A stretch of DNA of 64,000 nt from Alphaproteobacteria bacterium (lineage in GTDB: Bacteria; Pseudomonadota; Alphaproteobacteria; Caulobacterales; Maricaulaceae). Below, piece after piece: positions 35,016 through 46,545 of the stretch (positions are counted from its first letter, which is position 1; the number at the start of each line of letters is the position of its first letter). Position numbers and translations under genes: made by a program. The notes under the pieces are model-generated. The model was not told the DNA's origin, ran no database searches, and worked only from the letters and a program-made list of their open reading frames with translations. The stretch spans positions 124,001-188,000 of the forward strand of contig WGOD01000001.1 in NCBI GenBank assembly GCA_016124205.1. The letters are read 5' to 3'.

Positions 35016-37277
35016 TTAACTTCCGATCACCTGATCGAACCACTTGATAGCCGCATCGCCTTCCTGGCGGGTAACCGTGTCGACGGTTCGGGAATGGGCG
35101 ATGCCGTTTCGCAAAGAGGCTAGCTGACCAAATTTGGCGATCAGCGTTTCCTTGTTCACGAATGTGTCGGTGAAGTCCGGCCAGACGGCCTTTGCGACAA
35201 TGGTCTGCTCCAGTTCGCGGAGGTCGGCGAATTCGAGTTTCGACAACAGGTTTTCGTACGCTTCGATCTCGAAAGCCGGGTTTTTCTTCTCTTCACGGGT
35301 TAGCCGTTCATCGATCTTCTGTCGTACATGATCGGGCAAACTATCGGGATCGTTGCCGAGGCGCTCGGCGATCAATGCACGCAGCCGCTTCTCGACCCGT
35401 TCGACGGCCTCGTCGAGGTCGCGCATGACCGGGGTCAGGTCCATCCGTTCCTTGATCACGAGATTTTCGATGGCGTCGAAAATTGTTCGCTGCCTTTCGG
35501 TCAGGAAGGCCTCGTAGTCCTCGGGTGTGAACGGGTTTCGCAGCAGGATTTCGAGTCCCTTGGCCGAGATGAAATGGCTTTCCAAGATTTGTCGAACGCG
35601 CGCTTCGCCGTTCTCTGCGATCAATTCAGGCAGGTAGGCGTTGGGCAACCGGTCGCGGATGACATGGCGATTGGTCTTGGAGGTTAGCGGTGCTCGGTTG
35701 AGGATGGTGTGCACCGAGGTGTTCTGATCCTTTTTCAAAAGCTTCCAGCTGACAGGAACAATGTGATGATCGTCGAGCTGATCGGTCGGCGGCATTTCCC
35801 CGGTTACCCAGTCGCGCGCGCCCGCCAGGACGAAGAGATTGAAGACCGCGTTGTAAATCGACTGGCCTGATTTGACATGGCTGCGGAAATCGATCTGGCG
35901 GAAGCTGCGATTGAAATCGGTCACGGCCGCCGGGATTGCAGCGTCGTCCTCGATCCAGCTGCGCACATCCTGGAAGTCGCGTGTCGCTGTGGATTCAACA
36001 GACCCGGAATACCGGCTCAGGAAGACCGAAGCCCAATACCAGTGACGGATCTTGCGCTCGGCACCGAGTTGCTTTGCCGCCGGCAGATCGGCCGCGTGGG
36101 CGCCGAGCGCGGCAAAGGTCGGCAGGATCGAGACGTAGGGGATGAAGCGGGGCGAGACGGCACCGAATTCCTGCGGGTGACGCAGCCGCTCGATCGTCCG
36201 CGCGAGCGCATCGACCGCATGGTCCCACCGCTGCTTGAAGTCGTGCTCGTCGGGCACAAGAACTTCCCGCTCGAGCGAGCCGTCAGGCTGGCGAACGGGT
36301 TTTTTCTCGCCCGGAAGGAGGTAGTAGAGATAACGCGGCGAGCAATAATACTGGCGCAGGATCGACATCACCTGCAGCACGTAGACATTCATCTTCTTCG
36401 CGTCGGGGAAGGACAACCGGTCTGCCGCCTCGCGCCACATGAAGCGCAGCTGCAGGCCCTTTGGTTTCAACAGTGCGTTCATCAGGTCGAATACGTCGAG
36501 CTGAACGCCGCGGCTGTTGATCTGGGTGAAGATGTCGCAAACCTTGTCGAGCGCGAGTTCCCGGTCGAGTTCGACATAGGAAATCTGGTACTGGCCATAA
36601 ATGGCTTGCACATGCGTGCCGAAGGCGACTGCGTTGTCGGCGTGGCGCCGGGCCTCTTGTGCGCCTTTTTCGTCTCCGTTTGCCTCCGCGCTTTCGGCCT
36701 TGGCTTTCCAGTAGTTCTGATAGCCTTCCAGCCAGCGATAGAGCGGGAACATGTCGCTCTGGCCGAGAAGACGGCACGGGAAAAAATGGCTCGCGAACTG
36801 CGCCTGGTCATCCTCCAGAAGGGCCCGCATCTGCCGGCCGACCCAGTCGTATGAAAAAGCATTCTCCTCGGCCGCCGGGTCCATGAACCGATCGACGTAA
36901 ACGTAATAGACGGCCCGGTTCCTGCGGTTGGGCAAGGCTTCGTTCGGGGCAACGAAAGCATAATGGAGAGCGGTCAGGCGTTGCTGGCCATCGAGCACGA
37001 TGAATTCGCGCGACGCCTCGTCATAGCCAGGTTCGCCCTTCTTCGGGCGGCCGAACAGGGGCTCGCAGGATAGCGCACCGAAATTATCCGGCTTGCCGCG
37101 CCAGAGTAGAAGGGAGCCGATGTAGTAATCCCGGAAAACACTGCTCACGAGATTGCTGATATCCCAGGGCTGCCATTCGAAATCGCGCTGGAAATCCGGC
37201 ACGACGTAGCGTCCTTCACGCAGGCGTTGGAGCAGCGTCTGCAGCGAGATGTGGTCGGGTTTCTGGGCGTTGAGCAT
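35016..37277 (-). CDS. DUF262 / HNH / HEPN protein (GmrSD-like restriction factor)
   Basis: 753 residues. N-terminal DUF262: VPDFQRDFEW (26-35), the nucleotide-site motif DGQQRLTALH (96-105) and FTQINSRGVQLDVFDLMNALL (250-270). An HNH-type nuclease core follows: DHHIVPVSW (503-511) and NRAPLTSKTN (528-537), as in DUF262-DUF1524 enzymes such as GmrSD and related type IV restriction systems. The C-terminal helix contains LRNGIAHSR with Arg723 and His728, a clean HEPN RX4H RNase motif. So two nuclease modules sit behind an NTP-sensing domain. Four bases after the MBL-fold gene. Confidence 0.85.
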   Translation of the reverse strand: MLNAQKPDHISLQTLLQRLREGRYVVPDFQRDFEWQPWDISNLVSSVFRDYYIGSLLLWRGKPDNFGALSCEPLFGRPKKGEPGYDEASREFIVLDGQQRLTALHYAFVAPNEALPNRRNRAVYYVYVDRFMDPAAEENAFSYDWVGRQMRALLEDDQAQFASHFFPCRLLGQSDMFPLYRWLEGYQNYWKAKAESAEANGDEKGAQEARRHADNAVAFGTHVQAIYGQYQISYVELDRELALDKVCDIFTQINSRGVQLDVFDLMNALLKPKGLQLRFMWREAADRLSFPDAKKMNVYVLQVMSILRQYYCSPRYLYYLLPGEKKPVRQPDGSLEREVLVPDEHDFKQRWDHAVDALARTIERLRHPQEFGAVSPRFIPYVSILPTFAALGAHAADLPAAKQLGAERKIRHWYWASVFLSRYSGSVESTATRDFQDVRSWIEDDAAIPAAVTDFNRSFRQIDFRSHVKSGQSIYNAVFNLFVLAGARDWVTGEMPPTDQLDDHHIVPVSWKLLKKDQNTSVHTILNRAPLTSKTNRHVIRDRLPNAYLPELIAENGEARVRQILESHFISAKGLEILLRNPFTPEDYEAFLTERQRTIFDAIENLVIKERMDLTPVMRDLDEAVERVEKRLRALIAERLGNDPDSLPDHVRQKIDERLTREEKKNPAFEIEAYENLLSKLEFADLRELEQTIVAKAVWPDFTDTFVNKETLIAKFGQLASLRNGIAHSRTVDTVTRQEGDAAIKWFDQVIGS

Positions 37278-37281
37278 GGGG

Positions 37282-38583
37282 TCAGAGCCTTAGCTGATCT
37301 GGATAGTTGAGTTTGGTGTCGATCACCACGCCTTGCTGTCCATTCGCAAGGAAGGTTCGCCGAGTGAGAACATCGTGGAGCACTTCGATATCAGGGTGCC
37401 CATAGATGTAGTTGGGGTCTGCACAGAACACCGTCGCATCGGGCTTGAGCTTGTCAGCCAGACCCTTATGCCAGTTGTGCCGTGAGCCGTGATGAGGCGC
37501 TTGAAATACACCGATATGCTCAATGCGTTCGCGAAAGCTCGGGTGTCTGCATAGCCTTTTGAAGGCTTGGACTTTATAGTCTGCGTCACCGGTCAGAAGC
37601 TGGCCATACTTTCCTCGATCATTCACGAACTGGGTGAATGGCCCTTGGGGAAGCGAGCGCCACGTCAGAGCGCTGTTATTTCGTTCGGTCGCGTGCGATT
37701 TCGGACCTGTATAGAGGGAAAGCGATATCCGGTTCCGGGCGGGTGAAGTATCGCCAAATTGTTCGTCGTAGAGTCTGCGTAATTGCGAAAGTGCCGAGGA
37801 TGAGCGGCCGCGCGCCTGCGTCAGGTCTTCCCTCAGCCGCGCGACAGCATCTGCGAATGCCTCAGGATGTCTGGGTTTCCATTTTTGATCGTTATAGGGG
37901 GCGAACTCCCAGATTGAGCTAAGAAGCACGCAGTTGCTCGGAAGTATCGTTGTGCGGCCGGCAGAGTGCGTGAGTCCCTCGGCCGCTGCCTCACTGTAAA
38001 CCTCAGGGTTCTCAGGCGAGAGATCGTACTCATCGAGCCGGCGCACCTCCGGCCGTGCGCCTTCTCTTAGATCCGGCTCATCGTCGAGCGAGATCAGGAT
38101 TGGGCTGCGCTCACCTTCCTCTCCCTTGTCGTCCGGTCCGGAGCCTCTGACATAGGCAATACGGTCTACCCTGCGCTCAGCACGTTCCATGATAAATTGG
38201 GTGGGATTGCGCGCGAAATGAGTATCTCCACCGCCCGCCCCACCCGCCATAGAGTCGGCGAGACGCACGTCGAGCGGAGCATAGGGAAGCAGGACCAGCT
38301 TGACATGAAATCGGTTCAGCAACCGGGAGAGCCCGTTGCGATGATCGGCGTCGAAATGTGAAATCGTCAGAATGTCGATTGTCGTGGTCAGCGCGGTATT
38401 AGCGAATTTGTCTATAACTCTGTTAAGCGTCCCCTGATGGGGCTCGCTTCCGCAGTCATAGACGTATGTCAGCTTGAGGTCTTCGGGGTCGAACGCGCCT
38501 GATCGGTGATCGAACAGCTGACCGGTGATAAAACCGCCTTGTCCGACCGGGTGAAAGATTAGCTGGTTCCGGTAGGACCTCAC
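37282..38583 (-). CDS. ComEC/Rec2-like metallo-beta-lactamase-fold hydrolase
   Basis: 433 residues. The metal motif HFDADH (His76, Asp78, Asp80, His81) in TISHFDADHRNGL, LLTGDADYKVQ and FQAPHHGSRHNW are those of the soluble MBL domain related to the competence protein ComEC. A ~180-residue insert of no known family lies between the first and later motifs. The gene overlaps hsdS by 4 bases and so is co-expressed with the restriction system. ComEC-like domains degrade one DNA strand, so a nuclease role in the same defence is plausible. Confidence 0.85.
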   Translation of the reverse strand: MRSYRNQLIFHPVGQGGFITGQLFDHRSGAFDPEDLKLTYVYDCGSEPHQGTLNRVIDKFANTALTTTIDILTISHFDADHRNGLSRLLNRFHVKLVLLPYAPLDVRLADSMAGGAGGGDTHFARNPTQFIMERAERRVDRIAYVRGSGPDDKGEEGERSPILISLDDEPDLREGARPEVRRLDEYDLSPENPEVYSEAAAEGLTHSAGRTTILPSNCVLLSSIWEFAPYNDQKWKPRHPEAFADAVARLREDLTQARGRSSSALSQLRRLYDEQFGDTSPARNRISLSLYTGPKSHATERNNSALTWRSLPQGPFTQFVNDRGKYGQLLTGDADYKVQAFKRLCRHPSFRERIEHIGVFQAPHHGSRHNWHKGLADKLKPDATVFCADPNYIYGHPDIEVLHDVLTRRTFLANGQQGVVIDTKLNYPDQLRL

Positions 38584-40331
38584 TCTGCCGCCTCCATGGC
38601 GTCATTGGCCGGTTCCAGCGCTTCGTGAAGGAGGGCTTCGAGGAGGCGGGTGCTTGTGGTGTCGGCGGTGGTGAGGGCGGCCTCCAGCCGGTCGCAGAGG
38701 GCCATGAGGGCATCGACCTTGGCCACGATGCGGTGTTGTTCGGCGAGGGGTGGGAGTGGGAATGGCAGCTTCCGAAAATTCCCAAGACCAATGCGAGTGA
38801 GTGTCATCCCGTGGTGGTGGGTTAGGGCAAACTCCTGCGCCAACGGAGAGTTGAGGTAGTGAAGCGCGAACCGGTGATCGAGGTCGGGGTGCACCGCGAA
38901 ACGATAGCAGTCCGCCTTCACCAGAGCCGGGCCTATATTATCAGGCACTTCGCAACAACGGACATTCGGGTCTACCAGACCAGCCACTACAAGATTTCCC
39001 GGCACTACATGGTGGTTTGCCAGCTCTTTGAATCTCGACTCATTGATGTATGAGCGGTGTTCGTCGCGAAACTGACCAGCCGCGATATTCTGTAGCCGGA
39101 TCACGCGAAAACCCGGGCGTTCGATGTAGTGAGCGGTTTTCAACTGCGATCCAAAGGGACCGTCCGTAATCGCTCGACTATCGTCGGCTGCGGTCTGATC
39201 AACGACGGTCCATAACCATCCGGAAGGAAGTGAAGGAGGCTCAATTTCCAACTCCTCTGAATTCAGTTGGGCAAACTTGCGCTTATGAATCCGGTTGCCA
39301 TGGATGCGCGTCAGCAACTCCGAAGCCGGTTCGTCGGTCGGGTCCTGGGCCACCAGTTTGCCACGGACGGCGAGATTGAGGATGGTCTGGCGGAGGGGTT
39401 TGATCTGGTCGGGGCGGGTGGTGAGGGCGGGGAGCACGTCGAGGGTGAAGCGGGCGTTCTCCTCGAAACCCGACTGATCTGTCTCCGGCGCGGTCAGGCG
39501 GGCGAGGCTGGCGGCGGTCAGCCGGTCGCGGGTGGCCTCGCGCGCGGTGCGGGCCGCCTCCAGCCGGTCCAGCAGCGCCATCAGCTCCTCCACCTTCGCC
39601 ACGATCCGCCGCTGCTCGGCGAGGGGTGGGAGGGGGAGCAAAGCCGGCCCCATGCGCTTCAGCGTGACCCGAGTTATCGCGGCTCCTTTCATGAAGCTGC
39701 GCATCTGCTCGTAGAAAAACGGTGACCGCAAGAAACGGACGATGAGCTGATTGTAGATGCATGGTGGCAGCTTCAGAAGCGCCACGCTCGACAACATGCT
39801 GAAGGGCTCTTTCAGGTCGTTGACAGTGACGATCCCGGTAGTCGCCCCGTCCTTGATGTAAAGGATGTCGCCGGGTTCGGGGTTGCAGCGTGCGTAGATT
39901 TCCTCATGGACCTTGCTTGAAACATAGGAGACATCGTCAAGCTTTACGCCGTCGTCTTTGATGTTCTTTGCCGTGATGTAGAGAAAGTCGCCTTCCGGTC
40001 CGTTCGGCGGGGAATGATGCGTGCCGTCGGTGAGCTTTGTGAGGATGTCAGAAAGTCGGACCCATCGCCATGAGCGGGGCAACTCGAAGGGCACGTCGTC
40101 CGGTTGAATGGGCTCAGTCGGTTTCGGCTTCCTGATCTCCCCCGCCGTCATCAACCGCGCCTTCTCCGCCGCGATCCGCTTCAGCAATTCCGACGCGGGT
40201 TCGTCGGCCGGGTCCTGTTCGATCAGCTTCCCGCGCACGGCGAGGTCCAGCACGAAGCGGCGGAGGCGGGCGATAGCGTCGGGAGCCTCGGCGACTTTCT
40301 CATAGAGGGCGAGCAGTCGGTCGGCCTTCAT
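38580..40331 (-). CDS. hsdS: Type I restriction-modification specificity subunit
   Basis: 583 residues with two target-recognition domains. The conserved linkers are duplicated: LDLAVRGKLIEQDPADEPASELL (28-50) and LNLAVRGKLVAQDPTDEPASELL (318-340), and again LPPLAEQRRIVAKVEELMALLDRLEAA near 234-260 and a near-identical copy near 525-550. This head-to-tail symmetry is how HsdS dimerises two methyltransferase subunits around a split recognition site. Overlaps hsdM by 4 bases (ATGA). The recognition sequence cannot be read from sequence alone. Confidence 0.95.
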   Translation of the reverse strand: MKADRLLALYEKVAEAPDAIARLRRFVLDLAVRGKLIEQDPADEPASELLKRIAAEKARLMTAGEIRKPKPTEPIQPDDVPFELPRSWRWVRLSDILTKLTDGTHHSPPNGPEGDFLYITAKNIKDDGVKLDDVSYVSSKVHEEIYARCNPEPGDILYIKDGATTGIVTVNDLKEPFSMLSSVALLKLPPCIYNQLIVRFLRSPFFYEQMRSFMKGAAITRVTLKRMGPALLPLPPLAEQRRIVAKVEELMALLDRLEAARTAREATRDRLTAASLARLTAPETDQSGFEENARFTLDVLPALTTRPDQIKPLRQTILNLAVRGKLVAQDPTDEPASELLTRIHGNRIHKRKFAQLNSEELEIEPPSLPSGWLWTVVDQTAADDSRAITDGPFGSQLKTAHYIERPGFRVIRLQNIAAGQFRDEHRSYINESRFKELANHHVVPGNLVVAGLVDPNVRCCEVPDNIGPALVKADCYRFAVHPDLDHRFALHYLNSPLAQEFALTHHHGMTLTRIGLGNFRKLPFPLPPLAEQHRIVAKVDALMALCDRLEAALTTADTTSTRLLEALLHEALEPANDAMEAAE

Positions 40332-41785
40332 CGGGTGAGGGCCTCGGTGAGAATGGCCTTCAACTGGTCACGGATGGCCGCGACGTCAGCCTCGGCGGCG
40401 GACAGATCCTTCAGCAGCGCTTCGGGATCGCCGTGATCCTCGGCCACGGTGTGGGGGTTCTTTATGTCGAGGTTGTAGCCGCGGGCCTTCACGTCCTCCG
40501 CGCTGACCTTCCAGGCGCGCTCGGTTTCCACCCGCCCCTCGCGGTGCGGCCCACCCCACCAGTCCGCGCAGTCGGCCAGGTGTTCGAGCCGGATCGGCTT
40601 CGTCATCGAATAGGCCTTCTGCCCCTCGGGCACCTGATGTTCCCAGAACCAGATGTCCCGCGTGGGCGCGCCCTTCTCGAAGAAGAGCAGGTTCGTGCCG
40701 ATCGAGGCGTAGGGGCGGAAGACCGAGTTCGGCAGGCGCACGATGGTGTGGAGATTGCATTCCTCCATCAGGTGTTCCTTGAGCCGGGTCTTCACGCCCT
40801 CGCCGAAGAGCGAGCCGTCGGGCAGGACCACGGCCGCGCGGCCGCCGGGTTTCAGGAGGCGGATGATCAGGGCGAGGAAGAGGTCGGCCGTTTCCCGCGT
40901 GCGCCAGGCCTGCGGGAAGTTGGATTCGATCCCGTCCTCCTCCTTGCCGCCAAAGGGCGGGTTGGTGAGGACGATGTCGACCCGGTCGGCCTGACCCCAG
41001 GAGATGTAGGGGCGGGCCAGCGTGTTGTTGTGCTTCACGAAGCTGGCGTCCGCGATGCCGTGGAGCAGCATGTTGGTGACCGCCAGCATGTGGGGCAGGG
41101 GTTTCTTCTCCACCGCGCGCAGGGCCGCCTGCATGCGCGCCTCGTCCTCCGGTTTGTGCACGGAGCGATCACGCATGTGCCGGATGGCGCAAGTGAGGAA
41201 GCCGCCGGTGCCGCAGGCGGGGTCGAACAGCGTTTCGCCCGGCTTCGGGTCGATCCGGTCGACCATGAAGGCCGTGACGGCGCGCGGCGTGTAATACTCT
41301 CCGGCATTGCCGGCCGATTGCAGGTCGTTGAGGATCTGCTCGTAGATCTCGCCGAAATGCTGGCGGTCGGCCAGCGTGTTGAAGTCAATGAGGTTGATCT
41401 TGTTGATCACCTGGCGCAGCAGCTGGCCCGACTTCATGTAGTTGTAGGCGTCCTCGAAGACCGAGCGTACGACCTGGCAGCGGGCGCGGTTGCGACCGTC
41501 GAGCGACAAAGATTTGAGCGCCGGGAAGAGATCGTCATTGACGAAGGCGAGCAGGGTGTCGCCCGTCATGCCTTCCGGATCGGCGGCCCAGTTGCGCCAC
41601 TGGAAACGGTAGGGGACGGGCGAGAGATAGTCCTCGCTGTCGAGTTCGAGCTCCTGGTCCTGGTCGTCGATGATCTTCAGGAAGAACAGCCAGCAGAGCT
41701 GGGAGATGCGCTGCGCGTCGCCATCGACGCCAGCATCCTTGCGCATGATGTCCTGGATGGATTTGACGGTGGTGCGGACGGTCAT
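40328..41785 (-). CDS. hsdM: Type I restriction-modification DNA methyltransferase subunit
   Basis: 485 residues. Motif I LFDPACGTGGFL (187-197) binds S-adenosylmethionine and motif IV NPPFGGKE (275-282) is the catalytic loop for N6-adenine. The N-terminal helical domain (SIQDIMRKDAGVDGDAQRI) and the segment GEYYTPRAVTAFMV are typical of HsdM. Works with HsdS for methylation and with HsdR for cleavage. The start ATG is 35 bases after the PD-(D/E)XK gene. Confidence 0.96.
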   Translation of the reverse strand: MTVRTTVKSIQDIMRKDAGVDGDAQRISQLCWLFFLKIIDDQDQELELDSEDYLSPVPYRFQWRNWAADPEGMTGDTLLAFVNDDLFPALKSLSLDGRNRARCQVVRSVFEDAYNYMKSGQLLRQVINKINLIDFNTLADRQHFGEIYEQILNDLQSAGNAGEYYTPRAVTAFMVDRIDPKPGETLFDPACGTGGFLTCAIRHMRDRSVHKPEDEARMQAALRAVEKKPLPHMLAVTNMLLHGIADASFVKHNNTLARPYISWGQADRVDIVLTNPPFGGKEEDGIESNFPQAWRTRETADLFLALIIRLLKPGGRAAVVLPDGSLFGEGVKTRLKEHLMEECNLHTIVRLPNSVFRPYASIGTNLLFFEKGAPTRDIWFWEHQVPEGQKAYSMTKPIRLEHLADCADWWGGPHREGRVETERAWKVSAEDVKARGYNLDIKNPHTVAEDHGDPEALLKDLSAAEADVAAIRDQLKAILTEALTR

Positions 41786-41820: not shown

Positions 41821-43035
41821 TCAGGATTCGGCCGGGAGTTCGAGAATGAACTTTCGCATGATGTCCATCACGTTCTGGAATTCGTCGGATTTCATCTCCG
41901 CTTTGGCTTTCTCAAAGGCCTCCGCAGCGAAGTCATCCGGATCCCGCTCTTCGGCGGCTTCGGTCAGAAGTTGAAAATCGATCCGGTGAGGTTTGAACCA
42001 GACATCGCCCCGCCTTCCGGAGCGACGGAACGGAAACTCTGATGCCGTCGACCAAACCCGATCGGCCCAGTCCCTAGGTGGATTAGAGCAAACGATATCA
42101 AGCCCGAGGTTCTTTCTGGTCAGCGTGAGTTCGCACAGAACGCGGCGATTATTCCCACCCCAGCAATGATGATCACGGTTTTGCTCGAGATCCCATTGCT
42201 TTGGACAAAATCGAACGATCAGCCCCCCTTCAGACTCCATCGACAGGCCGAGTTCCACCGCAGATTCGGAGAAGAGCCGATTGAGTTCTGAGACGGCGAC
42301 GTTTTTCGGAGCCTGTCTTTCCTCGAAAATGAAGTCGATCGCTGCCCGGTGCTTGCGGTAGATCTCGCGAGCGAGCCTGCGAGCTTCGTCATTCGGCATG
42401 AATTCCTCCTCCAGCAACGCCGCGTATTGCTCGGTCAGAGCGCGCTCGGCTCCACCCGTACGGATTGAAGAAAGCGTCTCGCTGAGTGCATGGAGGACGT
42501 CTCCATAAGTCGCGACCAGATACGCGTCGTCATCGGGTTCCTCTCCATCGCGGCTGAGCAAGATGAAGAACCGTTTCGTTGCCGCCTTGAAAGTGTTCTC
42601 CACGAGCCGCCGATACCGGACCAACTGGTCGACGCCTTGGGTCGAACCCACCTTGTTTTCGATGCAGACGGTCCAGTGAGCACCATCGCGCCAAGCGATG
42701 TTAATGAGAATATCGATGTGATTTCGCTCGCGCTCGACCGTGACATACCGGATGTCACCTCGCTCCGCCTGTCTCGCGGCAACCGGGTCGCCATCCCTCA
42801 GGCACCGCTTCAGCCAGGCCGCGAGAAATGCTGCGCCAAAGCCGTGCGAACCATCCGGGTCGAACAGCCAGGCCAGCATGTTTGAATGTGGCAATTCTCG
42901 ATGCGCAATACGCAGGACGCGGAACAGGTTGAACCGGCCGAATTCGCGGGAGATGCGTTCCAACGCATGCTGGTCGTCTCGAAGGGATTCGAGCTGTCCG
43001 ATTAGTTGAGCACCTGCCGAACGTTTCCCGCTCAA
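41821..43035 (-). CDS. PD-(D/E)XK nuclease-family protein (PDDEXK_4-like)
   Basis: 404 residues from TTG 43035, whose TTGA overlaps the stop of the small gene upstream. HSNMLAWLFDPDGSHGFG near residue 50 and the nuclease core IDILINIAWRDGAHWTVCIENKVGSTQG (Asp108, Glu126, Lys128) define the family. The rest is unassigned; FIFEERQAPKNVAVSELNRLF leads to a C-terminal half that may sense a ligand. Inserted between hsdR and hsdM and so probably part of the defence unit. Confidence 0.87.
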   Translation of the reverse strand: MSGKRSAGAQLIGQLESLRDDQHALERISREFGRFNLFRVLRIAHRELPHSNMLAWLFDPDGSHGFGAAFLAAWLKRCLRDGDPVAARQAERGDIRYVTVERERNHIDILINIAWRDGAHWTVCIENKVGSTQGVDQLVRYRRLVENTFKAATKRFFILLSRDGEEPDDDAYLVATYGDVLHALSETLSSIRTGGAERALTEQYAALLEEEFMPNDEARRLAREIYRKHRAAIDFIFEERQAPKNVAVSELNRLFSESAVELGLSMESEGGLIVRFCPKQWDLEQNRDHHCWGGNNRRVLCELTLTRKNLGLDIVCSNPPRDWADRVWSTASEFPFRRSGRRGDVWFKPHRIDFQLLTEAAEERDPDDFAAEAFEKAKAEMKSDEFQNVMDIMRKFILELPAES

Positions 43036-43202
43036 GACACGGCCTCCTCATAGAGCGCAGCCTGAAGCGCATTGGTCGCGGCCAGAAACCCGTCCTTGCC
43101 GCCGAAAAGACAGATCTGCTCGAGCCCACGTTGGGTACCAGAGATACCGGTACCATTGCGAAGAATGCCCCTTAGAGACGTGTCGGATAGGTATTCGTTC
43201 AT
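43032..43202 (-). CDS. 56-residue protein ending in a duplicated HsdR C-terminal tail
   Basis: Read from ATG 43202, which overlaps the FRG gene stop (ATGA), to a stop shared with the start of the PD-(D/E)XK gene (TTGA). The first ~30 residues (MNEYLSDTSLRGILRNGTG...) are unlike HsdR. The last 24, beginning FGGKDGFLAATNALQ and ending EEAVS, are identical to the HsdR C terminus encoded at 44083-44160. At the DNA level 43035-43107 and the hsdR 3' end differ at only a few, mostly silent, positions. It may be a remnant left by gene insertion or a working small protein; the unbroken frame and coupled overlaps argue it is translated. Confidence 0.6.
   Translation of the reverse strand: MNEYLSDTSLRGILRNGTGISGTQRGLEQICLFGGKDGFLAATNALQAALYEEAVS
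43033..43107. repeat. Duplicate copy of the hsdR 3' end
   Basis: About 73 bases match the end of hsdR (about 44087-44160) with a handful of differences, mostly third-codon positions. The two direct copies bracket the FRG gene. Similarity fades past the GGC-GGC-AAG codons on the upstream side. Confidence 0.85.
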
Positions 43203-44086
43203 TGACACTCCCGCCGGAGGTCGCTCATAGGCCGAAAAAGAGGGTCGGATCGGTTCGGGAAAAGCGCGGATTTCGGCAGCTTTCGGTGGGTCCTGCTTTT
43301 TTTCCAGAAGCTATCTACATTGAAATTGAATTTAGCCACCAATCGCACAGCGCACTCAACATCATCACCTCTATTTAACTCGGCTCTTCGTGTGGGTCGG
43401 AATGTAGGGTAGGGCCCAATGAGGTAACCTTCCTGCCAGTGCGGTCGAGCCGCGCTAGGGGGACAGAAATTACTGAGGCGAAGGACTTGAAACCCTTCAT
43501 CTGCAAAAACACTTGCCCCTCCTGTGAGGGCAGGTACGGCAAGTACCATAATGTGTGCAAAATCGGATTCGCTCTCAGATTTGTTTTTGTTAATTGATAT
43601 GCTGGCAAAACTACATGCTACTGACAAAGAGCTTGTGACATCTAAAAGTGGTGTTTTGCAAATTTCATAATGCTGAAGTATTGACCATCTCAGTATTTCA
43701 TTTCTTTTTAGGTCGTGTAAAAATTCGTTGCGTGAACCATACACATCGCTGAATTTTTCTATCAGTTTTGCCTCGCACATTTCTAGGTGTTTTGAGTTTT
43801 GTATTATTTTATCCCTATCAAATACCAGTCCTTTGCTGGGGCTATAGTTTCTGTACATGGACGGTTTAATGGTGGTGAGGCCCCTCTCGTCCGCGTAATC
43901 GCCATTCTGACCCCTAAATAAAAATACATAATCTCGGTTGCTATATTGAATTTCGGATATGTTACTAACTAATTCCCCGTAATTGCTGACGTAGTATCCA
44001 GCATCTTTTCTGGCGAAATCATTGCTTCCGCGTTTGAATCCATTCTCGGTAAAAACATAAAGTTCTTTCTCGCCAACTCTCTTCAC
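43199..44086 (-). CDS. FRG-domain protein, AT-rich cargo gene
   Basis: 295 residues from GTG 44086, which overlaps the hsdR stop by 4 bases (GTGA). The FRG motif is FLFRGQNGDYADE (56-68), followed by LTTIKPSMYRN, both typical. FRG proteins are common in phage-defence islands; their activity is not settled. The gene is strikingly AT-rich compared with its neighbours, including A/T third positions and runs such as TTTTTTATC, which marks recent transfer. It sits between two copies of the hsdR tail. Confidence 0.85.
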   Translation of the reverse strand: MKRVGEKELYVFTENGFKRGSNDFARKDAGYYVSNYGELVSNISEIQYSNRDYVFLFRGQNGDYADERGLTTIKPSMYRNYSPSKGLVFDRDKIIQNSKHLEMCEAKLIEKFSDVYGSRNEFLHDLKRNEILRWSILQHYEICKTPLLDVTSSLSVACSFASISINKNKSESESDFAHIMVLAVPALTGGASVFADEGFQVLRLSNFCPPSAARPHWQEGYLIGPYPTFRPTRRAELNRGDDVECAVRLVAKFNFNVDSFWKKSRTHRKLPKSALFPNRSDPLFRPMSDLRRECQ

Positions 44087-46545
44087 GACACGGCTTCCTC
44101 ATAGAGCGCTGCCTGAAGCGCATTGGTCGCCGCCAGGAACCCGTCCTTGCCGCCGAAGCGGCGGATCAGCTCGACCTTCGTCCCCATGCTCCGCAGCGGA
44201 TTGAGGTCGAGGACTTTTACGTCGTCGACATCGAGCACGCCGTCCTCGGCATATTTGTCGAGCAGGGCGTCGAGCACGGTGCGGGCCTCCGGCCCGTAGC
44301 GTGCGAAGACATCGCGCTTACGGACGTTTTCCGCGCGTTCCCGCCGTGTCAGGGGCGGACGGTCGAACGCGACATGGCAGATCAGGTCGAACGGATCGAG
44401 ATCCTTTCCGGCGACCTCTTCGAGCACGTCGAGCAGCACGCCCTCCTCGGCCAGTGCTTCGACAATGGCCGACTTGCGATCGGTCTCTGACCAGCGGCGC
44501 AGGAAGGCGTCGAGGCTGTCGAACTCGTCGCGCAGGCGGCGGCGCGTATAGTCCTTGAGGCTCTCGGTGACGAGCTTGCCATTTCGGTCGAGATATTCGA
44601 CGCGCTCGGCAAGAATGCGGACCTCAACCCCGTCGACATAGAGCTTCCGGATCGGCCGCTTGCCGTTGGGCGGGATGTGAACCCCGCTATCCCCGTCTTC
44701 CTCTGTCCCTGTTGTTTCCCCGGTCCAGGGCGCTTCGCTTTCGCTGCACCCCGGCGGCGTTCCGTCGTCGGGTTCGGGCGGGTCAACCGGGTCGCCTGCT
44801 TTCGGTTCGTAGATCTGAACCGGATCGCCATCGAAGTCCGGGTCGGCGAAGTGCGCGGTCGCACCGCGGAAGTCCATAAGGGTGAAATAGAGCTTGCCGG
44901 TTTCCTCGTGGATGCGCGTACCGCGCCCGACAATCTGCTTGAATTCGGTCATCGAACCGACCAGGCGGTCGAGCACGATCAGGCGGCAGGTCTGGGCATC
45001 CACACCAGTGGAAAGCAGCCGCGACGTCGTGACGAGGACCGGGTAGGGCGATTCCGGGTCGATGAAATTGTCGAGCTGGGCCTTGCCCTCCGGGTCTGAC
45101 CCGGTGATGCGCATGACGTACCGGTGGTCCTTGGCCACGAGGTCGGCATTTTCGTTGACCAGAGCCTGTCGCATGCGGGCGGCATGTTCTTCGTCAACGC
45201 AGAAGACGATGGTCTTGGCCATCCGGTCGCCGCTTTCCTTCAGGAATTGCGTGACCTTCTGAGCGACGAGCTGTGTGCGCTCGTCGATAACGAGGACGCG
45301 GTCGAAATCGCGGGCATTGTAAATCCGGTCCTCGATCTCTTCGCCGTGACGGTCGCGCGCGCCAGGCTCGGGCCGGTAGCCTTCGATGTCGCTGTCGATG
45401 TGAAGCTTGATCACCTTGTAGGGCGCGAGGAAGCCGTCCTCGATACCCTGCTTCAGCGTGTAGGCGTAAACCGGCTCGCCGAAATACTCGATGTTCGAGG
45501 CGTATTCGGTTTCCTTCGGCGTGGCCGTCAGGCCGATCTGGGTCGCCGCATCGAAGTATTCGAGGATTTCCCGCCAGGCGCTGTCCTCGGCCGCACTGCC
45601 CCGGTGGCATTCGTCGATCACGATGAGGTCGAAGAAGTCGCGCGACAGTTCCTTGAAGAGTTTCTGGCGCTCTTCCGGGCCGGTCAGGGCCTGATAGAGC
45701 CCCAGATAGATCTCGTAGGAGGTATCGATCCGACGGGCGGAATCGACCGCTGTCGTCAGGGACACGGCCTCGCCGTCGTCGCGCTCGATCGTCTTCGACT
45801 TCGTCGACAGCTTGGCCATCGCCCCGGCGAAGGGGCGGAAGTCGTTCACCATCGTTTGGTCAACGAGGATGTTGCGGTCCGCGAGGAACAGAATGCGCTT
45901 CTTTTCCTTGGCCTTCCACAGCCGGTGGATGATCTGGAAGGCGGTGTAGGTCTTGCCCGTGCCGGTCGCCATGACGAGCAGGATGCGGTCCTGCCCGCGG
46001 GCGATGGCGGCGGTCGCGGCATTGATCGCGTTGACCTGATAATAGCGCGGGCTCTTGCCTGATCCGTCGTCGTGATAGCGCCTTGTGAAGGTTTCGGCGC
46101 GCGCTTCGGTGTCGAGCCCCTTCCAGCGCCGGTAGGCCTGCCAGAGGGTTTCGGGCGAGGGGAAGTCCGATCGCGCGATCTCGCGCTCCATCGGGGTAGG
46201 CGCCCCGGTTCGGTCGTGCATCACGAAGCCGTCGCCATTTGAGGAAAAGGCGAAGGGGGCGTCGAGCGCCTCGGCATAGCGCAGGGCCTGGCCCATGCCG
46301 TCGGCCATACCGTGCGTATTGTCCTTGGCTTCGACCACAGCGAGATGAACATGCGGTGCGTGGGTGAGGACGTAGTCGGCTTTCGACGGCTTGCCGCGTG
46401 TCTTCAGCTTGCCGCGCACGATGACGCGGCCTTTGGTGAAATAGAGCTCCTCGCGAATCCGGTCTTCGGCCCATCCCGCCGCCTTGATGGCGGGCGTGAT
46501 GAAGCGCGTGCGCACCTCGGTTTCTGTCAGCTTTTCCCCTGCCAC
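44083..46545 (-). CDS. hsdR: Type I restriction endonuclease/translocase subunit (EcoEI-like)
   Basis: 820 residues. N-terminal nuclease: Asp57, Glu72-Ala-Lys74 (VVEAKDN) and the QxxxY motif Gln86-Tyr90 found in type I R subunits. The SF2 helicase motor follows: Walker A ATGTGKT (193-199), DECHRG (about 313) and LTATP, then the second RecA domain with VGRGTRIHEETGK. An EcoEI-type C-terminal domain ends the chain. It translocates DNA by ATP hydrolysis and cuts far from the site. First gene of a long minus-strand operon; its stop overlaps the FRG start. Confidence 0.95.
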   Translation of the reverse strand: MAGEKLTETEVRTRFITPAIKAAGWAEDRIREELYFTKGRVIVRGKLKTRGKPSKADYVLTHAPHVHLAVVEAKDNTHGMADGMGQALRYAEALDAPFAFSSNGDGFVMHDRTGAPTPMEREIARSDFPSPETLWQAYRRWKGLDTEARAETFTRRYHDDGSGKSPRYYQVNAINAATAAIARGQDRILLVMATGTGKTYTAFQIIHRLWKAKEKKRILFLADRNILVDQTMVNDFRPFAGAMAKLSTKSKTIERDDGEAVSLTTAVDSARRIDTSYEIYLGLYQALTGPEERQKLFKELSRDFFDLIVIDECHRGSAAEDSAWREILEYFDAATQIGLTATPKETEYASNIEYFGEPVYAYTLKQGIEDGFLAPYKVIKLHIDSDIEGYRPEPGARDRHGEEIEDRIYNARDFDRVLVIDERTQLVAQKVTQFLKESGDRMAKTIVFCVDEEHAARMRQALVNENADLVAKDHRYVMRITGSDPEGKAQLDNFIDPESPYPVLVTTSRLLSTGVDAQTCRLIVLDRLVGSMTEFKQIVGRGTRIHEETGKLYFTLMDFRGATAHFADPDFDGDPVQIYEPKAGDPVDPPEPDDGTPPGCSESEAPWTGETTGTEEDGDSGVHIPPNGKRPIRKLYVDGVEVRILAERVEYLDRNGKLVTESLKDYTRRRLRDEFDSLDAFLRRWSETDRKSAIVEALAEEGVLLDVLEEVAGKDLDPFDLICHVAFDRPPLTRRERAENVRKRDVFARYGPEARTVLDALLDKYAEDGVLDVDDVKVLDLNPLRSMGTKVELIRRFGGKDGFLAATNALQAALYEEAVS

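Follow-up and report, generated by a model that had tools for sequence, protein, structure and literature searches.

The window analysed here is a 64,000-nt stretch of contig WGOD01000001.1 (contig C1 below) in assembly GCA_016124205.1, an alphaproteobacterial genome of the Maricaulaceae, and it carries a type I restriction operon in which two further genes stand between hsdR and hsdM. A comparison of related operons supports the view that the hsdR-hsdM junction is a genuine site of exchange within the operon, where single and probably defensive genes are swapped. The window holds two stacked cargo genes with a second copy of the hsdR 3' end between them, and this arrangement is explained, with moderate confidence, by uneven recombination that displaced the end of the resident hsdR. 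An initial annotation, made from the sequence alone, had pointed to the duplicated hsdR end and had suggested a swap site for defence genes.

Structure of the repeat and of the operon

The features that bear on the slot are as follows (window coordinates).

44083..46545, minus strand: hsdR, type I restriction subunit of the EcoAI/FtnUII type, 820 aa, open frame intact
44083..44174, minus strand: tail copy 1, the hsdR 3' end, closing in a GTGA overlap with the FRG gene
44096..44100, minus strand: Shine-Dalgarno-like GAGGA in copy 1 (motif scan), 9 nt 5' of the FRG GTG
43199..44086, minus strand: FRG-domain gene, slot cargo 1, 295 aa (Pfam FRG, E 2.2e-9; PADLOC PDC-S15)
43032..43202, minus strand: 56-codon fusion frame, a 33-codon head plus an in-frame hsdR tail
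43104..43202, minus strand: the 33-codon head, with weak likeness to the HsdM N-terminus (8.4 bits)
43032..43123, minus strand: tail copy 2, a probably displaced hsdR 3' end, 89% identical to copy 1
43043..43049, minus strand: Shine-Dalgarno-like GAGGAGG in copy 2 (motif scan), 5' of the PDDEXK_4 TTG
41821..43035, minus strand: PDDEXK_4 nuclease-like gene, slot cargo 2, 404 aa (Pfam PDDEXK_4, E 7.8e-26; PADLOC PDC-S26)
40328..41785, minus strand: hsdM, the right-hand border of the slot

The window HsdR is of the EcoAI/FtnUII type, matching NF046051 over its full length at 1135.5 bits (cut-off 550) and EcoEI_R_C at 117 bits (cut-off 24). The direct repeat 43032-43123/44083-44174 spans 92 nt at 89% identity with a core of 71 nt at 94%, and the expectation value (E) of the core, approximately 1e-27, indicates that the repeat is not due to chance. 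Copy 1 is the genuine 3' end of hsdR, and the FRG gene is bracketed between both copies. The duplication of the hsdR end around this gene is thus as initially described, with the coordinates correct; the repeat had been put at about 73 bases and is somewhat longer.

Each tail copy overlaps the start of the next gene, as had also been proposed: the hsdR stop and the FRG start share GTGA, and the stop of copy 2 and the PDDEXK_4 start share TTGA. Copy 2 forms the in-frame end of a 56-codon open reading frame (ORF) at 43202-43032, the ATG of which overlaps the FRG stop (ATGA), so that hsdR, FRG, this mini-ORF and PDDEXK_4 are joined in an unbroken stop-start chain. Both copies contain a Shine-Dalgarno-like motif, GAGGA before FRG and GAGGAGG before PDDEXK_4. 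The gene behind copy 2 is the second cargo, PDDEXK_4, and not hsdM, which starts at 41785, 35 nt after the PDDEXK_4 end. The two tails differ at 5 of the last 75 positions, and all five differences are synonymous and fall on third codon positions (probability of all five on third positions, 0.003), because of which both tails look like the ends of once-working hsdR alleles.

The initial description of the FRG gene as AT-rich holds: in 200-nt windows its G+C content is 0.37-0.41 over the 5' two thirds, against 0.635 in hsdR, and 0.50-0.52 in the 3' part. The shift in composition between 43199-43500 and 43500-44086 gives the gene a mosaic appearance.

The 33-codon head of the mini-ORF yields no match in Pfam or PADLOC and none among phages; among 376 genomes of the class only its own genome is matched (E 0.05), and the sole plasmid match has E 5 and lies on the strand opposite to an annotated gene. 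The head occupies the place where hsdM begins in the loci with a single FRG gene. In a post hoc comparison, which is weak, it scores 8.4 bits against the HsdM N-terminus, with a best value of 4.6 among shuffled sequences (2000 made, 1439 scored). Two GGTACC hexamers, 9 nt apart, are present at 43124-43202, between the FRG gene and copy 2.

An exchange slot between hsdR and hsdM

The junction was compared in a sample of 80 related hsdR loci from named genome records, out of at least 575 confirmed. hsdM was found downstream in 78 of the 80, with a gap of at most 10 nt in 57, an insert of 552-1253 nt in 19 and a remnant in two (123 nt in L054 and 53 nt in L058). By eye, the L054 remnant appears to be an OGG-like gene that has mostly been lost, and slot cargo seems also to decay in place. 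Five further loci (66-70% identity) are filled in L003, L102 and L105 and empty in L004 and L103. Among the distant loci L005-L021, hsdM lies within 61 nt in six, and the short flank at hand contains no hsdM in 11. Of the 21 inserts that were read, the two remnants excluded, 16 have a first cargo gene starting within 5 nt of the hsdR stop, and 15 have at most 14 nt between the last cargo stop and the hsdM start. The slot in this EcoAI/FtnUII-type branch holds mostly one gene, mostly in stop-start coupling.

The cargo is varied. FRG stands alone in the slot in L003, L026, L060 and L079, where it is named by Pfam, and in L097 and L105, where it was recognized by tblastn with the window FRG (in L105 also by annotation). 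PDDEXK_4 likewise stands alone in L031 and L070 (Pfam). Since each of the two occurs alone elsewhere, the window represents a stack of two alternative occupants. Pfam further identifies OGG-like genes in L038 and L066 (L054 and L062 were placed in this group by eye, from their ends), Exo_endo_phos in L057, DUF4357 in L042, PDDEXK_3 in L083, and in L040 and L065 a DUF433 gene with a DUF5615 gene, which we take to be a toxin-antitoxin pair. The cargo of L041, L046, L063 and L067 receives no Pfam name and that of L085 a sub-threshold match only; the insert of L102 measures 544 nt.

The closest comparison is provided by the Rhizobium loci L057 and L063, which align over 7.2 kb upstream at 93% identity and then over 3.6 kb through hsdR at 91%. 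The alignment stops 15 nt before the hsdR end and resumes at hsdM for 1.6 kb at 92%, and the gap between hsdR and hsdM contains different genes (Exo_endo_phos in L057, a gene with no Pfam name in L063). The slot content is thus not constant, and the exchange has sharp edges. The two loci also diverge 0.1-0.2 kb upstream of hsdR and past hsdM, where hsdS lies. In the Rhizobium-Ciceribacter clade, five loci hold Exo_endo_phos, FRG, a gene without a Pfam name, an OGG-like gene and a 53-nt remnant; three of the five share 87-92% hsdR identity, and L066 is more distant. The proposed swap site for defence cargo inside the operon is accordingly upheld, with 19 of 78 junctions filled, and constant content in relatives, which would have spoken against it, is not what the comparison of the hsdR-hsdM interval reveals.

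An hsdR tree (FastTree, 84 rows) was used to count changes of slot state. It was built without the distant loci L005-L021, L094 (the frame of which continues beyond the end of its hsdR match at residue 791) and L041 (frame interrupted); L053, where the contig ends, carries no slot label, and L102 is mislabelled as empty. The seven FRG loci require seven changes, compared with a mean of 6.8 in shuffled labels, and six of these changes are required by branches with good support. The empty state clusters on the tree (14 changes, compared with 20.4 in shuffles, 0 of 500 being as low), and all labels together require 20 changes, compared with 22.7 in shuffles.

ORFs inside a type I operon that vary between close relatives, as restriction-linked ORFs do, are thus found in relatives of this family. 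The slot finding also rests on records that are not titled as metagenome-assembled genomes (MAGs), such as the Rhizobium loci, and it is independent of the three loci with tail scars described below. In the type IB operons of 5426 E. coli genomes, no use of the slot is seen among the matches listed: the junction query matched 942 of the 5426 genomes, 935 of them over at least 80% in one place (with pieces possibly joined), and the junction is an unbroken single piece in 59 of the 60 matches listed. Orthologues of the window hsdR occur in 20 of 398 genomes of the order (E 1e-100) and in 3 of 385 genomes of the class (E 1e-240), its own genome included in both; two orders around new hsdR matches returned only the centre genome itself (1 of 4 and 1 of 9). 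No account of the slot was found in the accessible portions of the open-licence PubMed Central (PMC) literature. The known clustering of defence genes near restriction systems is here narrowed to a defined, countable site, one junction with mostly one gene and sharp edges, and the slot nominates effector genes that may work with the type I enzyme, perhaps firing when restriction is blocked.

Two plasmid loci were observed in addition. A Pseudanabaena plasmid (L118, 5203-7615) has an IS1380 transposase gene, a PIN-domain gene and a small gene in the hsdR-hsdM gap, all on the opposite strand. On a Pseudomonas aeruginosa plasmid (L117, 5404-6722), two genes, one of them HNH-like, lie directly 5' of hsdM; the gene table of this record, which is incomplete, lists no hsdR.

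Tail scars and the origin of the second hsdR end

To locate further tail copies, the last 150 nt of each hsdR were compared with the next 8 kb, or a shorter flank, in 102 sequences; two of these are the window's own genome again, and the loci from the order search offer 0.9-1.5 kb downstream only. Copies of at least approximately 60 nt are present in the window, L040 and L065 only. The filled slots number 23 in all (19 from the sample of 80 together with the window, L003, L102 and L105), so 3 of 23 carry a copy; L102, L103 and L105 were tested apart and contain none. The initial suggestion that each cargo gene brings a tail copy can therefore fit at most these three loci and not the other 20 filled slots, and a copy accompanies other insertions in 2 of 22 cases (L040 and L065) but not in the remainder. 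Matches of 12-17 nt in L007, L015, L022, L045, L050, L072 and L084 were attributed to chance; in L022, L072 and L084 the match lies within hsdM.

The order in L065 is hsdR, an hsdM head of approximately 230 nt with a frameshift, the DUF433/DUF5615 pair, an hsdR tail and a full-length hsdM; in L040 it is hsdR, the DUF433/DUF5615 pair, an hsdR tail and a full-length hsdM match. The L065 hsdM head is 95% identical over 228 nt, with 11 substitutions (8 at third positions) and one inserted base, and L040 has at most a few bases resembling an hsdM head. In each of the three loci the additional tail is situated past the cargo, seen from hsdR, and is joined to the next gene, PDDEXK_4 or hsdM. Because of this position, the copy reads better as a displaced old hsdR end than as a tail borne by the cargo. 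The same arrangement, in which the end taken as the older one stands downstream of the newer end and its cargo and remains joined to its own neighbour, occurs in the window, L040 and L065.

The favoured explanation may be worded as follows. Slot cargo passes from strain to strain, probably through homologous recombination that has its anchors in hsdR and hsdM, and the resident allele was most likely hsdR-PDDEXK_4-hsdM. An incoming hsdR-FRG segment would recombine by homology inside hsdR, and its other end would join illegitimately approximately 30 codons before the resident hsdR end, with the product hsdR-FRG-[short head]-[old hsdR tail]-PDDEXK_4-hsdM. Although no longer part of HsdR, this tail would end an in-frame mini-ORF and offer a ribosome-binding site and a stop-start overlap to PDDEXK_4, by which the translational coupling of that gene can be kept. 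A tail scar of this kind would offer a reading of the order in which slot genes arrived. In the type VI secretion system (T6SS) effector arrays of Vibrio cholerae, an event akin to homology-facilitated illegitimate recombination has been proposed and is thought to be rarer than clean homologous replacement, according to the available part of that report (PMC5361080). According to the accessible part of another report (PMC3240628), recombination of this type is inefficient in E. coli conjugation.

The proposal of the initial annotation, a mobile cassette of hsdR tail plus cargo that enters at the hsdR end, perhaps by means of a site-specific recombinase, also fits the geometry, with a new tail on hsdR and the old tail at the far end. 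It is considered unlikely. The three repeats have unequal extents and each resembles its own hsdR, which argues that there is no common cassette end or att-like core; the same core repeat at both ends of the insert is not seen across loci, and a tail copy accompanies so few of the filled slots. An integrase or recombinase acting at the site, as then suggested, was not recovered, since contig C1 gives no match to PF00589 or PF00239 and the window insert holds FRG and PDDEXK_4 alone. Elsewhere in the same genome, which is 69.86% complete in 9 contigs, PF00589 integrase matches were obtained on contig C7, contig C9 and, below cut-off, contig C6, and there is no PF00239 resolvase match; transposase families were not searched. 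Site-specific recombination was set aside, there being no recognized recombinase and no common core.

The divergence of the hsdR end bears on the same model. Pairs of loci were pre-filtered by common 12-mers and compared without the window, L040, L065, L094 and L005-L021; the pairs share loci, and the values describe a tendency rather than a test. Where the hsdR body is at least 85% identical, pairs in which neither slot is filled show 85.2% identity over the last 75 nt (23 pairs among 22 loci; body 89.6%). The value is 81.0% for pairs with one filled slot (12 pairs among 12 loci; body 86.8%), 80.0% for the single same-cargo pair (body 89.4%) and 69.1% for differently filled slots (6 pairs among 4 loci; body 89.5%). 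With a body identity of at least 80%, the corresponding values are 82.5% for both empty (75 pairs, body 84.8%), 75.4% for one filled (39 pairs, body 83.7%) and 68.5% for differently filled slots (14 pairs, 11 loci, body 85.2%). The hsdR end could travel with the cargo, which would favour a cassette, or it could adapt to each new neighbour, in which case the divergence would reflect selection on the ribosome-binding site and the overlap. At the end of hsdR, 51 of 73 loci have a Shine-Dalgarno-like motif ahead of the following start (filled slots, 10 of 17; empty slots, 41 of 56), compared with 275 of 1460 control positions within hsdR.

A tentative extension would treat the hsdR end as a functional socket, in which the last 75 nt or so, encoding the C-terminal residues and containing the ribosome-binding site and the stop-start overlap, are exchanged with the cargo as a unit; tail scars would then be what stacking leaves visible, and hsdM would be followed by a similar socket. 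We regard this extension as possible but doubtful. If it were true, the operon would take up, stack and drop single effector genes with hsdR and hsdM intact, and each new cargo gene would be translated in step with HsdR.

Duplication in place, in which slippage doubled the hsdR end and FRG then landed between the copies, would account for two copies in one operon that are 93-94% alike, given that copy 1 reaches at most 76% identity with the tails of the other loci compared. The five differences are, however, all synonymous, and a freed duplicate should drift unless the mini-ORF is constrained. FRG also occupies the same place behind single tails in other genomes, and L065 has a second, allele-like hsdM head in addition to its tail. 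Such a duplication is accordingly judged rather improbable.

The least probable of these explanations, an assembly chimera, would have FRG and PDDEXK_4 haplotypes of two strains joined by a metagenome assembler. The low completeness and the nine contigs of the window genome, which is probably a metagenome bin, and the MAG titles of L040 and L065 are in keeping with it, and five synonymous differences are what two strains would be expected to show. The tail copies share exact runs of at most 20 nt in the window and at most 11 nt in L040, too short for the usual k-mer joining, and the window join preserves the frame, its start and stop overlapping. The L065 tails share exact runs of 44 and 48 nt, and a chimera is conceivable there.

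Several observations weigh against the displaced-end explanation. With a tail copy in only 3 of 23 filled slots, most swaps must have been scarless, and the scarred loci are the two titled MAGs and the incomplete window genome. No sister of the window operon with hsdR-PDDEXK_4-hsdM or hsdR-FRG-hsdM was found in the 398 genomes of the order, in which the best matches are 69% (hsdR), 42% (FRG) and 33% (PDDEXK_4); the single-cargo arrangements come from distant species only. No relative of the 33-codon head that separates FRG from the tail emerged from the Pfam, PADLOC and phage searches. First- and second-position differences make up 4 of 10 in the L040 tail and 5 of 9 in one L065 block (the other, of 48 nt, has none), which fits decay after the event and not constraint. 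Finally, searches that did not start from hsdR recovered three PDDEXK_4 relatives (30-33% identity), one among the 398 genomes besides the window's own and two among plasmid records. None of the three has an hsdR or hsdM match within approximately 6 kb, which indicates that this family is not tied to the slot.

Predicted functions of the cargo

Both window cargo proteins match PADLOC phage-defence candidates, FRG the PDC-S15 model and PDDEXK_4 the PDC-S26 model. The FRG protein belongs to the FRG-domain family (Pfam FRG, 38.5 bits; cut-off 25), and the motif FRGQ is unchanged across an alignment of this protein and four further slot FRG proteins (5 sequences). Its predicted structure, with a mean predicted local distance difference test (pLDDT) score of 50.8, is too poor for a fold comparison, and no solved structural relative was identified by sequence. 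FRG has been placed in the ADP-ribosyltransferase superfamily and proposed as an NADase in immunity, in the portion available of one report (PMC9503650).

In searches independent of hsdR, the 398 genomes of the order contain one FRG relative besides its own (E 1e-20), and 72,556 plasmid records contain one (E 1e-15); both stand behind hsdR. Of the six FRG relatives in the fetched loci, five had been retrieved by way of hsdR, and their position is no independent evidence. Gene neighbourhood thus hints that FRG may be a dedicated partner of the restriction enzyme, and FRG and PDDEXK_4 may act as back-up effectors tied to it.

Comparison with known systems

The rlo genes of Campylobacter jejuni and prrC of EcoprrI resemble the present case in that accessory, partly effector genes lie inside a type I operon and vary between strains; such genes are described in the accessible parts of PMC2610378, PMC2928727 and PMC3874165. 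In Geobacillus kaustophilus, an hsdR C-terminal relic beside rloC is mentioned (PMC2610378, in part), and PrrC in EcoprrI is a known precedent of a type I enzyme that holds an effector (PMC3874165 and PMC2610378, likewise in part). Unlike in those systems, the slot lies here exactly between the hsdR stop and the hsdM start of an EcoAI/FtnUII-type family, the cargo comprises FRG, PDDEXK_4, OGG-like and further genes, and an in-frame hsdR tail stands between stacked cargos. None of the matches in a scan of 20 cargo proteins carried the name PrrC or ABC ATPase.

T6SS effector and Rhs loci are similar in that a new module has been proposed to be acquired by one-sided homology and illegitimate joining, with the old part kept downstream, as far as the available text of PMC5361080 describes. 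An immunity gene or an effector 3' end is kept in those loci, whereas approximately 75-90 nt of hsdR are kept here, apparently as a translation signal. Elements that integrate into gene 3' ends likewise leave the host gene intact and the old 3' end beyond the insert; in contrast to them, the inserts described here contain no recognized integrase gene and no common core, and the cargo is approximately 1 kb.

The hsdM-hsdS junction and neighbouring genes

The remaining genes of the operon region were identified by Pfam and PADLOC scans (hsdS) and by profile scans (the two genes beyond it).

38580..40331, minus strand: hsdS
37282..38583, minus strand: gene with weak matches to metallo-beta-lactamase-type defence proteins
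35016..37277, minus strand: GmrSD_N gene

Past hsdS, at 35016-38583, the metallo-beta-lactamase-like gene follows after a short overlap and the GmrSD_N gene after a further gap of 4 nt.

As a control, hsdM tails were compared in 71 loci. A 32-nt match in L092 was taken as a scar, and 17-nt matches of L057, L058 and L081 were set aside. The L092 copy of the hsdM end, 94% identical, lies 493-524 nt past the hsdM stop and closes a PIN-like frame in frame (PIN by resemblance and not by profile scan); small genes follow this frame before hsdS. Judged from sequence, L092 appears to carry a comparable tail scar at the hsdM-hsdS junction, which is a possible second slot. hsdM and hsdS are tightly joined in 60 of 72 loci and 70 nt apart in two, and no hsdS start was found in two. 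In eight loci (L068, L070, L071, L092, L093, L097, L099 and L105) the gap is 0.7-1.3 kb, and in L105 a NucS-domain gene lies between hsdM and hsdS.

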